Source: Sphingobacterium cavernae (lineage in GTDB: Bacteria > Bacteroidota > Bacteroidia > Sphingobacteriales > Sphingobacteriaceae). From it: a DNA stretch of 64,000 bases. Below the pieces are notes generated by a model. It did no database searches. It saw only the letters and a program-made list of their open reading frames with translations, and was not told the DNA's origin. The stretch covers positions 1 to 64,000 of the forward strand of contig NZ_VIQM01000012.1 in the NCBI RefSeq assembly GCF_008520265.1. Direction: 5' to 3'. The number at the start of each line of letters is the position of its first letter. Positions within the stretch are counted from its first letter, which is position 1. The position numbers and the translations under genes are program-made. Shown here one piece after another: positions 1 to 8,659 of this stretch.

Positions 1-111
1 ATCAACTTTATCGTAAATATCTTAGCTGGATTAGCAGCATACAGTTTCTTCCCTAAGAAACCTTCAATCAAATATCAAACGGTAAAAACTAACCAATTGT
101 ACGCTTTTTAA
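1..111 (+). mobile_element. IS982-family transposase, C-terminal fragment (cut by window edge)
   Basis: An open frame enters from the left edge and gives 36 residues before TAA at 109-111. It reads INFIVNILAGLAAYSFFPKK and ends in NQLYAF. From memory of the family, IS982-type DDE transposases of Bacteroidetes end in a similar way (a NF-VNL-GLIAYSF-PKKPS segment just before the stop). The rest of the gene lies outside the window. The stop is followed at once by the region leading to the reverse transcriptase gene, so the right end of the element probably falls within 112-130, perhaps at ATCGAATTCAGGTT; that end is inferred. Family assignment is moderately sure because only the tail is visible. 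Confidence 0.6.
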
Positions 112-182
112 TTATCGAATTCAGGTTGATAATTTTGTTGATAAAAACATTAAAAACAATTAAACTTCAGAAGAAGAATAGT

Positions 183-1766
183 ATGGAAGAGTCAATATTT
201 TTAAAATTAGGTTATTTTCCAAAAGAACTACCACCTCCTTTTAATACGACCAAGCTAGCCAAAAACATCGTAGAACTAAGATCAATATGGACCAGTACTT
301 TTAACAGACTTAATAAGACAGAACGACAGAAATACAGAGAAACAAACTCTTGTAAATATAATATTCCAAAAAATGGATACATAAGGAGGGTACTCCATAT
401 TCCAAATCCTTTTAGTCACATCCAACTTACAGAAGTTATTTCATCTAACTGGAATGATATCCAAACTAAGTTAAATAATTCAACAATATCTCACAGTAGG
501 CCTGTAGAAAATACTCTTTCTATCAGGTCATTAAAAACAAAAAGTAATTTTAGAGACTTCACTTTGGAGCGTTTGCTATTGTCAGCAGATATGCTATTCG
601 AAGTAAAAACTGATATTTCAAGGTTCTATAATAGTATTTACACGCACTCAATTCCTTGGGCGATCCACGGTAAAAGTGTAGCGAAAGAAAACAGAACAGA
701 TTTAGACCTATTGGGTAATAAGTTAGACAAAATTCTTCGGGAAGGAAATCATGGTCAGACAATGGGAATTCCTATTGGTCCTGACACCTCCCTAGTTATT
801 GCTGAGATTGTTCATAGCGAGATAGACAGGTCAATTCAAGAACAATTTCCGAGATTAAAATTTTTGAGATATATGGACGACCTATATGCATATTGCGACA
901 ACTTAGCAGAAGCTGAAAAGTTTATCAAAAATTACCAGATTTTGTTAAGTGAATATCAGCTTGAACTCAATGAGGAGAAAACAACCATCAGCCAAAAAAT
1001 ATTTGAATTCGAAAACAAATGGACATCACAACTATCTGCCTTCAAATTCAGAGGTACTATAGGACAGAAAACAGATATTGAGCGATTTGCCTCCATTACT
1101 TTTGATTTATATAAAAAATACCCGAATGACTCGATATTACTTTATGCCATCCAAATATTATCCAAGCAAGATATCATCGACAACTCTTGGGAAATATATC
1201 AGGCTATTCTTTTCAAAGTTTTGTTAGTAGAACCAAAGGCAATGGAAACTATCGCAAAAATTTTCATTAAAAATGAGAATAAGGTTGATAAAAAAATATT
1301 TAAAGGAATCTTAGACAAGATACTTGATGAAAATGCAGGTAAAAACCATCATTATGAACTATCGTGGGTACTCTGGTTAATGAAAGAGTTCTCTTTTAAA
1401 CTGACTAAAGCGCGAGCAGATATGATTGTAAAATCACAAGATAGCTTTTCTCTCTTATTATTATTGGATTTAAAATCTAATGGTATGATCTCAAGTCGTT
1501 TTGACACAGAAAAAATCAAAGATATGATTAGCCAAGATGCTTTATCTGGAGAGAAGTGGTTGCTAATCTATGAAGCTCTTCTAAAGGGTTGGATAGAATT
1601 AGATAATGACCTTTTATCAGACAATAAATTCTTTTCTATTATGAGAGAATTAAATATTTCTTTTTATGATGAGACATATACATCTCGACCAACGATCAAT
1701 GAGAATACAGTTCAAGAAAGATCAATTTATGATTTCTTAAATCCACCTATTTCCAGACCTTTTTAA
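183..1766 (+). CDS. Defence-type reverse transcriptase with helical C-terminal domain (Abi/DRT-like)
   Basis: RNA-directed DNA polymerase of 527 aa, first gene of a six-gene operon. The N-terminus carries a GYFPKELPPPFNT segment. Motif A is TDISRFYNS with Asp144, motif B is GIPIGPDTS, and motif C is RYMDD with Asp232 and Asp233, so the catalytic triad is present. After about residue 310 the protein is rich in predicted helices with no recognisable nuclease. This fits the alpha-repeat tails of abortive-infection and unknown-group defence RTs rather than retron or group II RTs. ATG 183 was chosen over the TTG at 126 because homologous-looking sequence starts at MEESIFLKLGYF. It lies 2 nt before the ATPase gene. 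Upstream space is too short for a retron msr-msd RNA. RT assignment is firm; the subclass is inference. Confidence 0.88.
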   Translation: MEESIFLKLGYFPKELPPPFNTTKLAKNIVELRSIWTSTFNRLNKTERQKYRETNSCKYNIPKNGYIRRVLHIPNPFSHIQLTEVISSNWNDIQTKLNNSTISHSRPVENTLSIRSLKTKSNFRDFTLERLLLSADMLFEVKTDISRFYNSIYTHSIPWAIHGKSVAKENRTDLDLLGNKLDKILREGNHGQTMGIPIGPDTSLVIAEIVHSEIDRSIQEQFPRLKFLRYMDDLYAYCDNLAEAEKFIKNYQILLSEYQLELNEEKTTISQKIFEFENKWTSQLSAFKFRGTIGQKTDIERFASITFDLYKKYPNDSILLYAIQILSKQDIIDNSWEIYQAILFKVLLVEPKAMETIAKIFIKNENKVDKKIFKGILDKILDENAGKNHHYELSWVLWLMKEFSFKLTKARADMIVKSQDSFSLLLLLDLKSNGMISSRFDTEKIKDMISQDALSGEKWLLIYEALLKGWIELDNDLLSDNKFFSIMRELNISFYDETYTSRPTINENTVQERSIYDFLNPPISRPF

Positions 1767-1768
1767 AC

Positions 1769-4225
1769 ATGAATGATTTTAAATTAATAGCAGTACGTCC
1801 CAGAAAAGGATGTTCGAAAGATATCTTGAAGAACCTAAAAGAAGATCACTACTACTTTTTTGACAATAATTACGAGCCCTCAGAAGACGATTTTATTAAA
1901 AAGAAAGACATATCCTACGGACATGTACCTCAAAATTTTTATTATGAAAGAAAAGAAGGCAACAGTACCTCGCTTAATCATGTAAACATACAAGCAGTTG
2001 TAGGCAAAAATGGTGAAGGTAAAAGTAGCCTTTTAGATTTTCTGATAAGAATTCTAAATAATTTTCATTTTTTAATTATCCCTGGTAGCTTTAACCAGCT
2101 ATTATTTATAAAAGACTTGTATGGGGAAATTTACTTCAGCTTAAACGAAAACATCTATAGAGTAAAATTCGTCAATGAAAACTCTCTATGTACCTTCGAT
2201 AGAAAAAAAGATGATAAGATAGAATCAACGAATATTTTAGATGAGCCAGAAGATGAATGGACATATAAAGAAATCTTGTTTTTTACTTTGGGGATAAATT
2301 ACTCATTATACTCATGGAACACAGAACATTACAAAAACGAAAAAGTTTCTTCCGCCCCCTCACTATACACAGACAATGGAATTTCTTTTGCAGAACAACA
2401 AAATTGGCTTAGGAGACTATTTCATAAAAACGATGGATATCTGACGCCAATCGCACTTCATCCATATAGAAACAAGGGAATTATTGATGTAAATAACGAA
2501 GAGTTTCTAACGAGACAAAGATTATTAAGCTTATGTATAAATCCAAAATTAAACTTTGATAAAATTAGCGAAGAGCAAAACTTCACGGATTTCGTAATCA
2601 GAGAGAAAGAAACAGATTATATCCTTAATATACTATCTTCTATATCATATGTTATTGATCCAAAAACGGCAACAGATATTTATAGTTTTGTAATCGACAA
2701 TATAGAGAAACACTATAGTTCATTAGTAAACGAGGACTTAATAAAAACAATTGATTACTTCAAGAACTTACCTCCTAATTTCCTTACAAACATTAATAAA
2801 ATCAATAGTGTTTTTAAAGACAAAACTCTAGGTGGCGAAAATCAAATTTCTAACTTCCCAAGAAGCAGAAGTGCTCTAGAAAATGATTTAAACCTAAGAG
2901 GTCTCACAGAAGAAAATCATAATACCATTATAGACTTCGTTGAAATATTCGAAGAGGACTTACCATATATTAATGATAGAATTCTTATTTTATCATTTTA
3001 TATAACTGAAATTTATGAAATCTGGAAACAGGTAATTTATAAAAATGGAATCAATGACATTGAAAAAGGTGAAATAGAAAAATGTTTAAATTATTTAACA
3101 TATAAAACGCTATCAATAACAAATAAGTATCCGAAATACAAAGAAAGACTACCTTTTGACGGTATATACATTTTCTCAAGTAAAACAGTGGAATACTATC
3201 AAAGTCTAAGGGAAGTATGTAACGGGTATATCACTTCTTTACTAAATGACCGAAGTCATATTACACTAAAATTATTTCAAACCCTAAATTACGTATGTAA
3301 TTTTAATAAGGTAAAATATCCTCATGATTATAGTAAACTATTTAGAGACTTAAAAAAAGATAATCTAACAAAAGAGAGTTTCGAAATAAAAATCGAAAAG
3401 TATACATCCGTAGTACACTCATTATATGAATCATATTCTAATAAAAAAGAAAATAATACAATTAGCATTGAAAGATTCTACTTAGAATTTTTACCCCCTC
3501 CTATTTTTTTTGTAGACTTAAATATCAAGAACGAAGAAGGACAAAAAACAACATTTGACTCTCTTAGCTCTGGAGAAAGGCAACTGATCAACGTTACAAG
3601 TTCTATTGTTTACCACTTAAAAAATATCGATTCAATAGATAATAGCAATGAGCACTATGAATTGTTTTCATATAATTACATTAATATTGTACTAGATGAA
3701 ATCGAGCTTTACTTTCATCCTGACTATCAGAGGCAATTTATTAGTCGATTATTATTCTTGTTAAACCACGTTCATTTTTCAAATGTAAAAGCATTAAATA
3801 TCTTAATGATTACCCACTCTCCTTTTATACTAAGTGATATACCGAAAAACAATGTATTATTCTTAGAAAAAGGCAAGCAGTCATACCCTATGTCCGAGAA
3901 CACATTCGGTGCTAATATACATACTTTGCTTCAGCATGGCTTCTTCTTGAACAGTGTGCCTATTGGCGAGTTTGCAAAGAATAAGATCAATGATCTTTTT
4001 GATACTCTTCACAATAAAGACCTTAATGACGAATCTTTCCATGATATTGAACAACGGATACTTCTAGTCAGCGAACCTTTCATAAAGTCTCAATTATTAA
4101 AGTTATATCATGAAAGAAAACCTCAAAAAAAAACACCTAGAGACGAAGTTTATATATCCTTAATGGAACGAATTAATTACTTAGAAAAACGTTTAGATGA
4201 TATCAATAATCAAAGATCAAAATAA
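1769..4225 (+). CDS. PtuA-like AAA/ABC-type ATPase of a Septu-like module
   Basis: Large P-loop ATPase of 818 aa. Walker A is GKNGEGKSS at about residues 79-87, an ABC-like signature LSSGERQLIN lies at about 599-608, and Walker B is IVLDEIELYFHP with Asp643-Glu644. It is followed by an H-loop-like ITHSPFILSDIP. Between the two halves sits a long, mostly helical insertion. The architecture matches the SMC/ABC-type ATPases (AAA_15/AAA_21, PtuA, OLD-like) found in Septu and in type I-A retrons. No TOPRIM domain is apparent. The start is 2 nt after the RT stop and the end overlaps the HNH gene by 29 nt, so expression is coupled. It probably forms the sensor or clamp partner of the following HNH nuclease. 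ATPase call is firm; PtuA identity is inferred from pairing and motifs. Confidence 0.85.
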   Translation: MNDFKLIAVRPRKGCSKDILKNLKEDHYYFFDNNYEPSEDDFIKKKDISYGHVPQNFYYERKEGNSTSLNHVNIQAVVGKNGEGKSSLLDFLIRILNNFHFLIIPGSFNQLLFIKDLYGEIYFSLNENIYRVKFVNENSLCTFDRKKDDKIESTNILDEPEDEWTYKEILFFTLGINYSLYSWNTEHYKNEKVSSAPSLYTDNGISFAEQQNWLRRLFHKNDGYLTPIALHPYRNKGIIDVNNEEFLTRQRLLSLCINPKLNFDKISEEQNFTDFVIREKETDYILNILSSISYVIDPKTATDIYSFVIDNIEKHYSSLVNEDLIKTIDYFKNLPPNFLTNINKINSVFKDKTLGGENQISNFPRSRSALENDLNLRGLTEENHNTIIDFVEIFEEDLPYINDRILILSFYITEIYEIWKQVIYKNGINDIEKGEIEKCLNYLTYKTLSITNKYPKYKERLPFDGIYIFSSKTVEYYQSLREVCNGYITSLLNDRSHITLKLFQTLNYVCNFNKVKYPHDYSKLFRDLKKDNLTKESFEIKIEKYTSVVHSLYESYSNKKENNTISIERFYLEFLPPPIFFVDLNIKNEEGQKTTFDSLSSGERQLINVTSSIVYHLKNIDSIDNSNEHYELFSYNYINIVLDEIELYFHPDYQRQFISRLLFLLNHVHFSNVKALNILMITHSPFILSDIPKNNVLFLEKGKQSYPMSENTFGANIHTLLQHGFFLNSVPIGEFAKNKINDLFDTLHNKDLNDESFHDIEQRILLVSEPFIKSQLLKLYHERKPQKKTPRDEVYISLMERINYLEKRLDDINNQRSK

Positions 4226-5210
4226 GCTAGATCAACTCGCACAAGAGTACCTTGCAGAGGTAAAATCGTATTTTAATATTCCCAAAAAAAACAGATTAGC
4301 AACTATTTCTAAAGGTAAAAGAAGACTGGAGTTCAGAATGATAAAATATTTAGATGAACACCTTGAGGAGATTATTCTTTGTACTCCATCTAACTTAAAA
4401 GCAAAGCACGCTGATTTTATCGATTCTTTTAAATTGAATCTCAACGGAAATAATCAGCATCGAAATCAATTCAAGGCATTTAAAGAAAGAATGGAGAACT
4501 ACTTTAAACGCATTTTATCAAAGAAAATCACGAAGAATCAGGAAGAAATATCGATTGGGCGATGGCTTACAAAAAAAATAGAGGTAAGTGTATGCCCATA
4601 TTGTAACCATAATTATACTCTAACAGTAAATGATTTTGAAAATGACGTAAATTTTAGACCAGAATTTGACCATTTTCTACCAAAGTCAATTTACCCAATA
4701 CTTGCTTTGAGTTTCTATAACTTAGTACCAAGCTGTTCTATATGTAACAAACTTAAAAGCAGTAAAGAAGTAAGGCATACACCTTATAACTTAACTGAAA
4801 ATACTCCTATAAAATTCGAGTTCTATGGCTACAACAAAGAGCAAATAGAAAACGATGACGAAGATCAGACAAAAAAACACTTACTAGGCTTAGGAAAAAA
4901 CTACGATTCAATATATATCAAAGCAATTTCAGAGCCCCCATCCACGAGCCCAAACTGCAATATTAAAGTATTAGGGATCGAGCAAGTCTACAATCATCAT
5001 ACAGATTATGTTCAAGAAATAATGGACAAAGCACAACAGTACAACATAAATAGCTACGAAGCAATGATAAATACCTATAAAGGCTTAGGAAAGACAGAAG
5101 CAGAAATCGATAGAATAATATGGAGCTCTTATCTGGATGATCATTCCAAACGGCCACTTTCTAAACTAACCCATGATCTTTTAATACAATTAGGGGTAAA
5201 AAATGGATAG
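4197..5210 (+). CDS. PtuB-like HNH endonuclease
   Basis: Putative DNA-cutting effector of 337 aa. A zinc-ribbon HNH fold is visible: CPYC at residues 133-136, then FDHFLPKS with Asp158-His159, then a second pair in SCSICNKLKSS at Cys180 and Cys183. The DH-PK and LVPSCSICN signature is that of PtuB-type nucleases, which act with a PtuA ATPase. The N-terminal 125 residues are helical and charged. The gene overlaps the ATPase by 29 nt and the next gene by 8 nt. PtuB proteins known from Septu and retron Ec78 systems recognise or cut nucleic acid after ATPase activation; the target here cannot be read from sequence. Confidence 0.85.
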   Translation: MISIIKDQNKLDQLAQEYLAEVKSYFNIPKKNRLATISKGKRRLEFRMIKYLDEHLEEIILCTPSNLKAKHADFIDSFKLNLNGNNQHRNQFKAFKERMENYFKRILSKKITKNQEEISIGRWLTKKIEVSVCPYCNHNYTLTVNDFENDVNFRPEFDHFLPKSIYPILALSFYNLVPSCSICNKLKSSKEVRHTPYNLTENTPIKFEFYGYNKEQIENDDEDQTKKHLLGLGKNYDSIYIKAISEPPSTSPNCNIKVLGIEQVYNHHTDYVQEIMDKAQQYNINSYEAMINTYKGLGKTEAEIDRIIWSSYLDDHSKRPLSKLTHDLLIQLGVKNG

Positions 5211-6078
5211 ATACACTATACTCGTTGGTAATGACATCAACAATATCTCACCCGGCGTAAGTTGGGGAGATTTATTAATGAATATAAAAGCAAAATATAA
5301 CGTTCCTCTTCTTGCTAATGGTAACAAACCATTCCCAATGCTATATGAGGAGATATTCCTTCATGCTATTAAAGAAAACAATATTGATGAAACACAACTA
5401 AAAATCTATATTGGAGAGGAAATTTCGCGGATATCTCAAAATAAAATACACAGTTTAATAAGAGAATTATCTACGGACAACATTCTTACGACAAATTATG
5501 AATTCAGTCTAGAGGGGGGAATTCCGAAAGTTAATACCAGTTTGGTAAAAGAGACCGCATACAGTGTATTTCGACAGTATGAGGTTAATAGCAAAAAGTA
5601 CTGGCATATCCATGGAGACTGTAATGTTCCCGCCTCTATAAATTTAGGATATGAGCATTATTGCGGTCAGTTGCAGAAAATGAGGGATTATGTTGTAAAT
5701 GGCCCTAATTACACATCAAAGAGAATACATAAAGAATCGCTCATCAGGAGGTTGAAAAAGCAAGAAAAACTTAATCTCCAATCTTGGATTGATTTATTCT
5801 TCACGAGCGATGTCCATATTTTTGGACTAGCTTTAGATTTTGTAGAAATAGATATTTGGTGGTTATTGACTTACCGAGCTCGATGTAAATATTACAAGAA
5901 AAATAGCTTTATTGAAAATAAACTATACTACTATATTCCTCATAAATATGTCGAAGACTCTACTGATAAGATTCAATTACTGGAAGCTAATGACGTTAAT
6001 ATTATTATCATCGAGATCGATGATATTGCGGAATATTATCAAGACGTAATACATAAAATACGGTCAAAGTATGATTGA
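5203..6078 (+). CDS. SIR2-like (NADase-type) protein
   Basis: Protein of 291 aa with the order of motifs of defence SIR2 domains: an N-terminal LVGNDIN loop, NILTTNYE at about residues 93-100 (the TTNYD motif of the family, here ending in Glu), YWHIHGD at about 133-139 holding the putative catalytic His, and HIFGLALDFVEID at about 205-217, the usual G-S-D segment. SIR2 domains in Thoeris, DSR and similar systems hydrolyse NAD+ to stop phage spread, so an NADase role is the natural inference. It overlaps the HNH gene by 8 nt and the next gene by 8 nt. No membrane or additional effector domain is seen. Family call is fairly firm; activity is not proven because the Asp of TTNYD is replaced. Confidence 0.78.
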   Translation: MDRYTILVGNDINNISPGVSWGDLLMNIKAKYNVPLLANGNKPFPMLYEEIFLHAIKENNIDETQLKIYIGEEISRISQNKIHSLIRELSTDNILTTNYEFSLEGGIPKVNTSLVKETAYSVFRQYEVNSKKYWHIHGDCNVPASINLGYEHYCGQLQKMRDYVVNGPNYTSKRIHKESLIRRLKKQEKLNLQSWIDLFFTSDVHIFGLALDFVEIDIWWLLTYRARCKYYKKNSFIENKLYYYIPHKYVEDSTDKIQLLEANDVNIIIIEIDDIAEYYQDVIHKIRSKYD

Positions 6079-7102
6079 TTTTGAAAAGCATGGCAGTCTA
6101 TTAGAAGAGTTCAAAATTGCCAACAAATTAATACGTTTAGGATTTGGTGAACTACAGAACATCGACGGAACAAATGATTTCTATTTTCTTCCATTTCAGC
6201 TGTTATCTCAGGGATTTGAGCGAATTATGAAGGCTTACATCTGTACTGTTTACTATCATCGTCAGGAAGAGTACCCTAATTATGAATACCTAAAGTCTCT
6301 AGGTCATGATTTAAGTAAGTTACTCAATGAGATTATTGAACATTATTATGAGAGAAGTGATCAACACCAGTTGTTGTTAGATCAGAAGCTGTTAGATGAC
6401 GATAAAGATTTTTGGAAGTTACTCTCCATTATCTCTGAGTTTGGCAAATTTGCACGTTATCACCATTTTGATATTATAACAGGGCACAAAAAACCAAGTA
6501 TCAACACGGTAAAATCTTGGACGGATTTTGAAAGCCGCCTAATTGAAAGATTGGAAATACCTACTAAAAAAATATTTGATCCAGATCCTAAATCCTTAAA
6601 TGAAGTATATGCTGAAGTAGCCCGATATATCATTGTAAAATTTGAAAGCTTTGTATCAACACTCGGGAGACAAATTATCTTTGAAATAGCGGGTATCTAC
6701 GGCAAGCAGGTTTCCTCAATTGGGCTTTATGATTTTGGATTACTTTATCAAGATGATTTTGGATTGACTAACTATAGAGTGAATACTTCGAATTATAACG
6801 AGAAACTAAAGCCCAAAACACCATTTACTTTAATCGATAGAATCAAAAGATTCTTGAATACTGACGTTAAATACAAGACTATAAAGAAAGAAGAGTATCA
6901 AGGAAGCTGGCCCTTCTATTCTGACAAGGTAACCGTACAGTGTGAGCGGAAAGTTTGGTGTACTATAATCATTGAAGGGAATCAGTATGCACTCAATGGC
7001 TCCGCAAAAAGTAAATACAAATTAGAGAATCCACACGACGCAGGCATGGCTATTCTTGGAATATCACTTGGTGATTTTATAATTATAGCTAGGAGTTTGT
7101 AA
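6071..7102 (+). CDS. Uncharacterised operon protein, possible HEPN-like N-terminal domain
   Basis: 343 aa, overlapping the SIR2-like gene by 8 nt. The N-terminal part is helical, with LSQGFERIMKAYIC at about residues 45-58 and LKSLGHDLSKLLNEI at about 76-90. A K-GHDL-LL pattern of this kind is common in HEPN or AbiU2-like helical bundles. The C-terminal third is predicted beta-rich (VTVQCERKVWCTIIIEGNQY) and ends at residue 343 with a hydrophobic strand. No catalytic RX4-6H motif can be pointed to. I do not recognise a named family for the full length. Its position between two recognisable defence proteins suggests a structural or regulatory subunit of the same system, which is inference. Confidence 0.7.
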   Translation: MIDFEKHGSLLEEFKIANKLIRLGFGELQNIDGTNDFYFLPFQLLSQGFERIMKAYICTVYYHRQEEYPNYEYLKSLGHDLSKLLNEIIEHYYERSDQHQLLLDQKLLDDDKDFWKLLSIISEFGKFARYHHFDIITGHKKPSINTVKSWTDFESRLIERLEIPTKKIFDPDPKSLNEVYAEVARYIIVKFESFVSTLGRQIIFEIAGIYGKQVSSIGLYDFGLLYQDDFGLTNYRVNTSNYNEKLKPKTPFTLIDRIKRFLNTDVKYKTIKKEEYQGSWPFYSDKVTVQCERKVWCTIIIEGNQYALNGSAKSKYKLENPHDAGMAILGISLGDFIIIARSL

Positions 7103-7112
7103 CTAATAATTT

Positions 7113-7667
7113 ATGATGAGTGATGAACTAATCAAGCATCGATCTCTAAATCCTTTATATGAATGGGCTGTATGGGGACACCTTTCGAACAAAAGGGAAT
7201 TAGAATTGATTCTTCTTAAAGGACATTTAATGATTGAGAGCACTTTAGAAGCTTGTTTGTCCGAGAAGATGGAAAATAGATTTAATGAATTGTCATTTTT
7301 CAAGAAAATAAAAATATTCGAAGAAATGACATTCGAAAATAAGACCAAACACAATTTCATAATAGAATGTTTAAATCAATTGAATGTGATTCGCAATGAA
7401 CTAGCTCACGATGCCCTCTTTGAGATGGACGAATCGAATATTATGGATTGGTCAGAAGAAATACATAAGGAATTGTTCGGGACGAAATATAGCAAATACA
7501 CAATACGCACAAAATTCATTCATGCCTTTTCTTTTTTAGCAATCAACATCCTAGAAATGGATAGTTTAAAATACAGAATGATATCTCAGATTAATGAGAC
7601 CACTACACCAACTCCACCGCTTGTAGCTCTGCTGCCAGACGATGAAGCCCCTCTTCTATCTTCTTAA
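7113..7667 (+). CDS. HEPN-type protein with RNxxxH motif, tail antisense to hicB
   Basis: 184 aa; ATG 7113 or 7116 follows the previous stop by 10 nt. Residues 20-110 are helical and contain IRNELAHDALFEM at about 92-104. The RNELAH hexamer fits the R-x4-6-H motif of HEPN ribonucleases and of MAE_28990/AbiV-like helical proteins. HEPN proteins are frequent RNase toxins, and AbiA-type RTs are often linked to HEPN domains. The last 25 residues (from about ETTTPTPPL) are low complexity and are encoded opposite the 3' end of hicB, with 65 nt of overlap. This suggests that the native C-terminus was replaced when the island joined the hicAB locus. HEPN call moderate; possible loss of function at the tail. 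Confidence 0.65.
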   Translation: MMSDELIKHRSLNPLYEWAVWGHLSNKRELELILLKGHLMIESTLEACLSEKMENRFNELSFFKKIKIFEEMTFENKTKHNFIIECLNQLNVIRNELAHDALFEMDESNIMDWSEEIHKELFGTKYSKYTIRTKFIHAFSFLAINILEMDSLKYRMISQINETTTPTPPLVALLPDDEAPLLSS

Positions 7668-8004
7668 GCTGAGGCTGGCGAGGTTTCTTTAGCCCCGAGG
7701 AGTAATGTTGTAGCTGACGCTGATTGATCCCAGTAATCTTTTCTAAAGCGGCATTGGTAAAGATCCCTTTGTAATAGCTGAGAAAACTCTCTGCATCAAA
7801 GTGGTACACGATCTCATACTTACCTTTGAGTATGGATGGTATATTGTCATCTGTAAACTCCTCGGTAATGATCGCTATGGCATCTAAGATAGATTGCTTG
7901 GCCTCTTCGACGGTATCACCACCACCATAGATGCCTGCGGCATTCTCTGCGTAGGCGCTGAACATGTCTTGGCTACGTTCGATAATGATCTTTAATGTTT
8001 TCAT
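7603..8004 (-). CDS. hicB: HicB-type antitoxin
   Basis: 133 aa. The N-terminal 60 residues form the HicB RNase H-like fold: IIIERSQDMFSAYAENAAGI, then YGGGDTVEEAKQSILDAI. The C-terminal half has a helix-turn-helix-like segment (ALEKITGINQRQLQHYSSG) that probably binds its own promoter. It neutralises the HicA mRNA interferase encoded just upstream in the same direction, 39 nt away. Bases 7603-7667 are also the end of the convergent HEPN gene. The locus looks richer in GC than the RT operon beside it, consistent with different origins. Operator-like repeats lie over the promoter at 8293-8343. Confidence 0.9.
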   Translation of the reverse strand: MKTLKIIIERSQDMFSAYAENAAGIYGGGDTVEEAKQSILDAIAIITEEFTDDNIPSILKGKYEIVYHFDAESFLSYYKGIFTNAALEKITGINQRQLQHYSSGLKKPRQPQLKKIEEGLHRLAAELQAVELV

Positions 8005-8043
8005 ATCTGTTTATTTTCTATTATCATGGGGATCGGGAGCTAA

Positions 8044-8220
8044 TTAAAGCCCCAGATCCTTCATGATTTTCTTGCGAAGGCCCTCTCCTATCTCTTTGCT
8101 ACCATGATAAGGAACTGGATAGGTCTTTCCATCCTTCTCATAAATGTAATGAGATCCTTTGGTACGGATATGGATCCAGCCATTGTTTCGCAATAATCTG
8201 TGGAACTCACTTGATTTCAT
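8044..8220 (-). CDS. hicA: HicA-type mRNA interferase toxin
   Basis: 58 aa. It has the compact HicA double-stranded-RNA-binding fold: MKSSEFHRLLRNNGWIHIR, then TKGSHYIYEK with the catalytic His in KGSHYIY, then YPVPYHGSKEIGEGLRKKI. HicA cleaves mRNA in a ribosome-independent manner and is held by HicB. Gene order (toxin first, antitoxin second) is the classical one. A promoter with TACCTTTG and an upstream TTTTG sits 70-105 nt before the ATG. The length is normal for the family and no lesion is seen. Confidence 0.92.
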   Translation of the reverse strand: MKSSEFHRLLRNNGWIHIRTKGSHYIYEKDGKTYPVPYHGSKEIGEGLRKKIMKDLGL

Positions 8221-8292
8221 AATGAAAAAGTTTTAAATGTGCCTGGATAATTTATGCCTTAAACCACCAATCACACCTCGAACTCCACAATA

Positions 8293-8343
8293 CAAAGGTA
8301 GTATATTCACTACTTTAATTCAAAATTATTTTGCACTACCTTT
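8293..8343 (-). promoter_or_regulatory. hicAB promoter with candidate HicB operator repeats
   Basis: Read on the minus strand, TTTTG (8321-8325) and TACCTTTG (8293-8300) are 20 nt apart, the Bacteroidetes -33/-7 pattern. Superimposed is an inverted repeat AAAGGTAGT (8294-8302) / ACTACTTT (8309-8316) that covers the -7 box, plus a third inverted copy CACTACCTTT at 8334-8343 upstream of the -33 box. Autoregulation by HicB is known for the family; that these repeats are its operators is inference. Confidence 0.6.
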
Positions 8344-8371
8344 AGCTAGTTGATAAACTTATTCTCTAAAA

Positions 8372-8659
8372 ATGAAAAAAGGAACAAAAATCACCAATAA
8401 ACCATACCCTTTCAATCCAGATGAAGATCATAACTTGGCTCCGAAAAATAGGATCGCCTATATTATGACTAAGGAAATTAGAATTTTATTTATCGCAGTT
8501 AGCATAAATCTGTTTATTGCATTTTTCCTGTTCTACCTTTTGCCGGGGAATGATCTTGCTGATGTCTTTGACTTTATCAATAATTTCGGTCTTAATCTTT
8601 TCGTAGGCATCACGGGTTTGTACGCCTTTGCATATTACTGTGGTTTACGATTAAACTGA
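8372..8659 (+). CDS. Small two-helix membrane protein, uncharacterised
   Basis: 95 aa. After a polar N-terminus of about 30 residues (DEDHNLAPKNRIAYIMTKE) come two hydrophobic segments, at about residues 37-58 (ILFIAVSINLFIAFFLFYLL) and 72-92. No family is recognised. Its TGA stop is followed directly by the ATG of the next small membrane protein, so the two are likely translated together and may form a complex. It starts 152 nt from hicA and is transcribed divergently from it. No signal of phage or toxin origin can be named; a holin-like or immunity role is possible but unsupported. Confidence 0.55.
   Translation: MKKGTKITNKPYPFNPDEDHNLAPKNRIAYIMTKEIRILFIAVSINLFIAFFLFYLLPGNDLADVFDFINNFGLNLFVGITGLYAFAYYCGLRLN

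Follow-up and report, generated by a model that had tools for sequence, protein, structure and literature searches.

A DRT6-type reverse transcriptase in front of a Septu-like gene pair in Sphingobacterium cavernae, probably a stand-alone system without a non-coding RNA

The stretch of DNA analysed here, referred to as the window, comprises the first 64 kb (64,000 nucleotides) of contig C11 (NZ_VIQM01000012.1) of Sphingobacterium cavernae. As base 1 of the window is the end of the contig, the DNA further upstream is missing from the assembly. A reverse transcriptase (RT) gene is located close to this end, between the remainder of an insertion sequence (IS) and a row of genes in the same orientation, and the following features can be distinguished:

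1..127, + strand: 3' end of the IS (the transposase frame stops at 111, the sequence shared by the 12 genomic copies at 127)
128..182, + strand: non-IS leader of 55 nt before the RT gene (Rfam, folding, comparison of IS copies)
183..1766, + strand: DRT6-type reverse transcriptase, 527 aa (frame, profiles, tree, predicted structure)
612-614, + strand: codon of D144, the third Asp (59-row alignment)
636..659, + strand: motif IYTHSIPW, RT residues 152-159 (59-row alignment)
870..881, + strand: YMDD catalytic motif, RT residues 230-233 (sequence, alignment)
1017..1649, + strand: C-terminal helical domain of the RT, residues 279-489 (AlphaFold model)
1769..4225, + strand: PDC-M62A, PtuA-like ATPase, 818 aa, starting 2 nt past the RT stop
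4197..5210, + strand: PDC-M62B, HNH nuclease, 337 aa, overlapping the ATPase gene by 29 nt
5203..6078, + strand: SIR2-like protein, 291 aa (PF13289 match of 22.2 bits, below the cut-off of 24.5), overlapping, outside the RT unit
6071..7102, + strand: 343-aa protein with no family match, outside the RT unit
7113..7667, + strand: 184-aa protein with no family match, outside the RT unit

The transposase frame is open at base 1 and ends with a TAA at 109-111, which leaves 71 nt to the RT frame. The latter, as read from the sequence, is complete and extends from an ATG at 183 to a stop codon at 1764-1766. An in-frame TTG at 126 precedes this ATG; nonetheless, the alignment of the relatives begins at the ATG (M...LGYFPKELPPPF). 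The catalytic residues D144, D232 and D233 are intact, the last two as part of the YMDD motif, and D144 corresponds to the aligned third Asp that is conserved in all 59 rows. The motif IYTHSIPW is also unchanged in 59 of 59 rows, but this invariance is partly due to construction, because most rows were retrieved using the motif as a pattern. The transposase stop, the RT start, the 71 nt between them and the 527-aa protein with YMDD had been noticed by the earlier note and are confirmed on the sequence. The long helical C-terminus that it had described is borne out by the AlphaFold model (59 rows, pLDDT 93.5), in which residues 279-489 are predicted as nearly all helix with block-mean pLDDT values of at least 92.

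The assignment of the RT as Abi/DRT-like and not retron-like, also put forward by the earlier note, is consistently found by profiles, a tree of 45 RT domains and the predicted fold. Among the PADLOC profiles matching over the full length of the protein, two Drt4-named models are on top (5.8e-188 and 3.7e-173), and the Drt6 profile PDLC03748, which covers residues 5-512 of 527, is third (1.5e-168). Further Drt4, UG30, UG14 and AbiK models rank lower, with values of 4.9e-52 for AbiK and 1.1e-42 for Abi-P2, and the score for the retron St85 model is 41.8 bits at a cut-off of 235 bits. A profile built from the window RT and 58 relatives matched the DRT6 structure 9wy8 in the PDB at 8e-179, followed by UG15/DRT4 at about 2e-77, AbiK at 4e-43, Abi-P2 at 4.9e-41 and the retron Ec78 RTs at 4.5e-8. 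In the tree the window RT belongs to a starred set of six rows (97/94) together with RTs from Maribacter, Runella, a Chitinophagaceae MAG, Patiriisocius and Flavobacterium. This set is nested in a larger, unstarred clade (24 rows, 93/90) which contains the PADLOC-Drt6 row. The placement among the DRT/Abi rows, as expected by the earlier note, is separated from six retron-type RTs with 100/98, a split that carries a long-branch warning.

The nearest solved structure to the model is the hexameric DRT6 9wy8 (TM 0.88/0.94, Z 43.2, 1.9 A over 487 residues). DRT6, which we take to be UG12, shares the fold over residues 1-499 of the window RT with 31% identity across the 487 aligned residues and consists of a single RT gene, as in the window, whereas the window RT stands 2 nt ahead of a Septu-like pair. 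DRT4/UG15 (9vdo, 9l9s) also have the class-1 fold with the helical domain in common with the window RT (Z 35.2 for DRT4 and 32.2 for UG15), but the RT reaches only 271.6 of the 450 bits required by the NCBIfam Drt4 equivalog NF041749, and the PADLOC-Drt4 row (L013) is located outside its 24-row clade. AbiK and Abi-P2 share both the RT domain and the helical domain (Z 27.4 and 23.7) and are more distant by profile and tree. Lower Z scores were obtained for DGR and group II RTs (up to 15.7), DRT2 (15.5), DRT9 (14.7), AbiA (14.3) and retron RTs (at most 14.0). Taken together, the sequence comparisons and the model support a class-1 UG/Abi polymerase, and profiles, tree and fold rule out the identity of a retron RT. 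We call the enzyme DRT6-type on the basis of the tree and the predicted fold, although the two top-ranking PADLOC models carry the name Drt4; as the highest-scoring model of all is one of these, the DRT number is less certain than the class.

Both genes behind the RT find their best PADLOC matches in PDC-M62A and PDC-M62B, at full length and with 1.3e-51 for the ATPase and 1.2e-55 for the HNH protein, ahead of the PtuA and PtuB models (7.1e-19 and 1.5e-8). Curated cut-offs are not reached, neither for PtuA (52.4 of 500 bits) nor for the retron HNH family TIGR02646 (20.9 of 52.15 bits). The solved PtuA of a retron type I-A is matched weakly by M62A (2.2e-5), and a comparison of the HNH protein with solved structures gave no retron I-A match. 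We regard the two genes as the Septu-like PADLOC candidate pair PDC-M62. The order RT-ATPase-HNH is shared with retrons of type I-A (Ec78/Eco7, consisting of RT, msr-msd, PtuA and PtuB), but the window has an RT of another class, no ncRNA was found and the ATPase and HNH proteins stay below the curated cut-offs. With its adjacent full-length M62A and M62B matches the window resembles PDC-M62 loci elsewhere, from which it differs as the only one with an RT directly upstream. As for the genes further downstream, the 343-aa protein is present in 7 of the 399 family genomes, and at three of these loci (L327-L329) it is found beside genes for 1233-1248 aa and without M62.

The earlier note had proposed the combination of this RT with PtuA-PtuB as a new functional association. 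This proposal was not supported: the best fit of the pair is PDC-M62A/B, and the combination was not encountered at any other locus. On the side of the RT we examined 103 loci, namely 84 from the best 80 of 261 confirmed stretches plus four plasmid loci, 66 of these 84 with at least 3 kb of downstream sequence, and 19 loci on viral contigs, some of them with distant RTs. M62A or M62B was present at none of them, and the two loci L029 and L030 from the family search showed no RT-M62 association. A regular-expression search near the 84 loci for an ABC-type ATPase with an HNH-like neighbour returned one ATPase and no HNH. Homologues of the ATPase itself occur at 1e-10 in 77 of 399 family genomes. 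On the side of the pair, 60 M62A-like genes at 59 loci were read, the window included; about a quarter of them (L208-L221) are distant members matching the M62A profile at 1e-45 to 1e-55. An HNH gene lies next to the M62A-like gene in 59 of the 60 cases, again including the window. Neither a DRT-type nor a retron-type RT was detected in the stretches fetched around the 59 other genes, so that the window is the sole case, and this also applies to M62A on a plasmid (L078) and on viral contigs (L356, L357). At the level of the class, M62A matches were obtained in 10 of 395 genomes at 1e-40, and re-reading of 13 loci with about 1.5 kb of flank revealed no recurrence of the RT-M62 row. Phages yielded only partial, distant RTs in nine records, and scanning viral contigs with the window RT alone returned nothing useful. 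Among the papers listed by literature searches, no pairing of a DRT with PtuAB is described, as far as titles and abstract openings tell. As the row was not seen at 103 RT loci or around 59 other M62A-like genes, in samples that were capped and had flanks of limited length, we read the succession of RT, ATPase and HNH as most likely a one-off stack of two systems.

The genes upstream of M62A are varied. A NACHT gene (L053) precedes it by 11 nt and a TmtA gene (L058) by 41 nt; among ten other upstream genes compared with PADLOC, five were matched (HerA, LmuB twice, a type I specificity subunit and HEC-06) and five gave no match. Three loci (L057, L217 and L221) have a common upstream gene of about 270-290 aa with 56-66% identity. 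M62A-like genes are common in the family (L184-L221 and others) and often follow closely behind defence genes, which looks like a favoured spot for stacking. The genome of the window itself harbours a second M62A-M62B pair (C42:2639-5691, L072), with no RT in the 12 kb read. RTs similar to that of the window in turn stand tightly behind other genes, such as HerA in Daejeonella (10 nt) or an AAA ATPase-helicase pair on rhizobial plasmids (15 nt). In marine gammaproteobacterial loci (L106, L109, L126) a gene of about 208-231 aa is kept directly upstream of the DRT6-type RT and possibly represents a real partner there.

The locus with the NACHT gene (L053, genome G340) allows a closer comparison. 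It shares the SIR2-like, 343-aa and 184-aa genes with the window at 86-88% identity, and in an alignment with window positions 1769-8325 a DNA identity of 87% starts inside the HNH gene at window position 4981. Before this point the ATPase shows 37% and the whole HNH protein 48% protein identity, and the NACHT gene takes the place of the RT. Because identity jumps at 4981, the partner, the ATPase and most of the HNH gene differ as a unit between the two loci. Such a block difference is compatible with complete modules being swapped within a defence island, and an M62AB pair specific for its partner would fit as well. The exchange point possibly lies inside the HNH gene.

This difference also bears on an alternative in which the row would be a retron-like hybrid without ncRNA. 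Random DNA attached by the DRT to itself, instead of msDNA, would restrain the PtuAB-like pair and release it upon infection. The gene order and the 2-nt gap are those of an operon unit, the block-wise difference from L053 would follow from such a dependence, and the weak similarity of M62A to the solved retron I-A PtuA points in the same direction. According to passages of PMC11555353, retron Eco7 indeed requires msr-msd together with the RT to neutralise PtuAB. However, no other RT-M62 pair was met among the 103 RT loci and the 59 other M62A-like genes, and most M62 pairs do without an RT, including that on C42 of the same genome. If true, a DRT6-type RT in the role of a retron RT would be a retron analogue free of a guide RNA, but the comparative data do not favour this and we consider it improbable.

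The upstream end of the RT gene was analysed with respect to a hidden ncRNA. Together with the copy in the window, the IS is present 12 times in the genome. In the aligned stretch the copies are identical up to window base 127 and diverge thereafter, and as seven of them start exactly at the first base of their contig, the element breaks the assembly. Therefore, 16 of the 71 nt ahead of the RT belong to the IS and 55 nt (128-182) do not. No Rfam match was obtained in 1-8500 at E values up to 1, and folding of 112-182 is no better than that of shuffled sequences (z -0.27). The leader contains a sigma-70-like site (138-166, 9 of 12 positions), but such sites occur at chance level, with 48 found against 37.6 +/- 7.2 expected.

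If an ncRNA gene were part of the system, close RTs would be expected to share DNA beyond the RT gene. Among the 84 RT loci (80 genome, 4 plasmid), 60 pairs from 41 loci aligned over at least 900 nt. The median upstream homology of these pairs is 0 nt, and more than 60 nt are shared by seven of them, namely the near-identical pairs L073/L074 and L101/L114, the pair L080/L081, three pairs with a common upstream gene (L106, L109, L126) and L094/L097 (110 nt). On the downstream side the pairs share a median of -0.5 nt, and eight of the 60 have more than 100 nt in common; negative values arise because the first start codon following a stop was automatically taken as the gene start. The picture is different for retron-type RTs, which served as control: in 49 pairs the median upstream homology is 302 nt and at least 100 nt are shared in 42. 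This control comprises 42 of 80 loci on viral contigs, mainly the better-scoring ones, with pairs aligned over more than 550 nt instead of 900 nt and two of 51 pairs dropped as upstream DNA was lacking; the RTs were retrieved with the PADLOC RT_I-A profile, a match to which does not prove type I-A. Six of these retron-type neighbourhoods were read and contain no M62-like ATPase in the fetched stretch. In five of the six pairs formed by the nearest relatives of the window RT (L079-L082, from Maribacter, a Bacteroidia MAG, Nonlabens and Labilibaculum), 22-28 nt directly upstream of the RT are shared. Since homology ends at both ends of the gene in most pairs, this type of RT travels mostly as a single gene. 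In L080 and L081 the RT is flanked by repeats of about 130-200 nt, which are found again elsewhere at the same locus and resemble a cassette array; an integron reading of L079-L082 was not borne out, as the attC consensus fits poorly.

The tests run thus support that this RT has no retron-type ncRNA, as far as sequence homology can tell; an RNA that diverges fast would escape a comparison based on DNA homology. This is in line with the earlier note, which had seen no room for such an RNA in front of the RT and had named a conserved upstream RNA in homologues, removed here by the IS, as the finding that would speak against it: the leader outside the IS is short, and no conserved upstream DNA was detected in the relatives. 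An ncRNA dedicated to this DRT, as in DRT2 and DRT9, but sited elsewhere or too diverged for DNA homology, is very unlikely. The review PMC13213688 describes ncRNAs for several DRT families, and the flanks of the relatives were compared at the level of DNA homology. On the other hand, the predicted fold is far closer to the ncRNA-free DRT6 and DRT4 (Z 43.2 and 35.2) than to DRT2 and DRT9, and in most pairs (upstream >60 nt in 7/60, downstream >100 nt in 8/60) homology does not continue beyond the gene. A type I-A-like retron in which the IS removed or displaced the msr-msd, with RT, PtuA and PtuB left behind, is hardly credible: although only 55 nt separate the RT from the IS, the far side of which is missing from the contig, the class of the RT by profile, tree and fold, conserved upstream DNA of at most a few tens of nt in the relatives, unlike in the retron-type controls, the Rfam result for 1-8500 and the folding of 112-182 all stand against the deletion of an ncRNA.

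Therefore, we consider it highly probable that the locus contains a stand-alone DRT6-type DRT without ncRNA and, behind it, an independent Septu-like PDC-M62A/B pair, so that the row consists of separate defence modules and is not a retron with a replaced RT. The unusually tight gap of 2 nt between RT and ATPase and the block difference from L053 count against an independent stack. By analogy with its relatives, the RT would form a homo-oligomer, serve as its own primer for DNA synthesis and produce single-stranded DNA without a template; kinship with the studied enzymes is the reason for assuming self-priming and template-free synthesis here. According to the reviews PMC13213688 and PMC13314766, DRT4 makes random single-stranded DNA in a template-free reaction primed on a tyrosine, and the phage DNA-binding protein ORF55 allows toxic DRT4 DNA to build up and activates DRT6 too. 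The product of DRT6 itself is described as less resolved in PMC13213688, and AbiK and Abi-P2 are presented as self-primed, template-independent polymerases in parts of PMC9508834. The single-stranded product of the window RT may likewise turn toxic once it is stabilised by a phage factor. The tyrosines in the N-terminal part of the window RT are conserved as Tyr in 48 (Y11), 21 (Y59) and 8 (Y51) of the 59 aligned rows, and none of them is conserved strongly enough to mark the priming residue. M62A and M62B are probably located on the transcript of the RT, as an independent two-gene system with the SIR2-like and other genes next to it, and their kinship with PtuAB suggests an ATPase-gated nuclease. 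The targets of PtuAB vary by system, with tRNA-Tyr in Eco7 and nicked DNA for a Septu, as stated in passages of PMC11555353.

For the DRT6-type clade, the extension test points to RTs that work without a flanking ncRNA, and in combination with a retron-type control it offers a simple probe, based on sequence only, for hidden flanking ncRNAs in a DRT family. Furthermore, not every RT ahead of a PtuAB-like pair belongs to a retron, and calling the order RT-ATPase-HNH a retron I-A would mislabel loci like the one described here.
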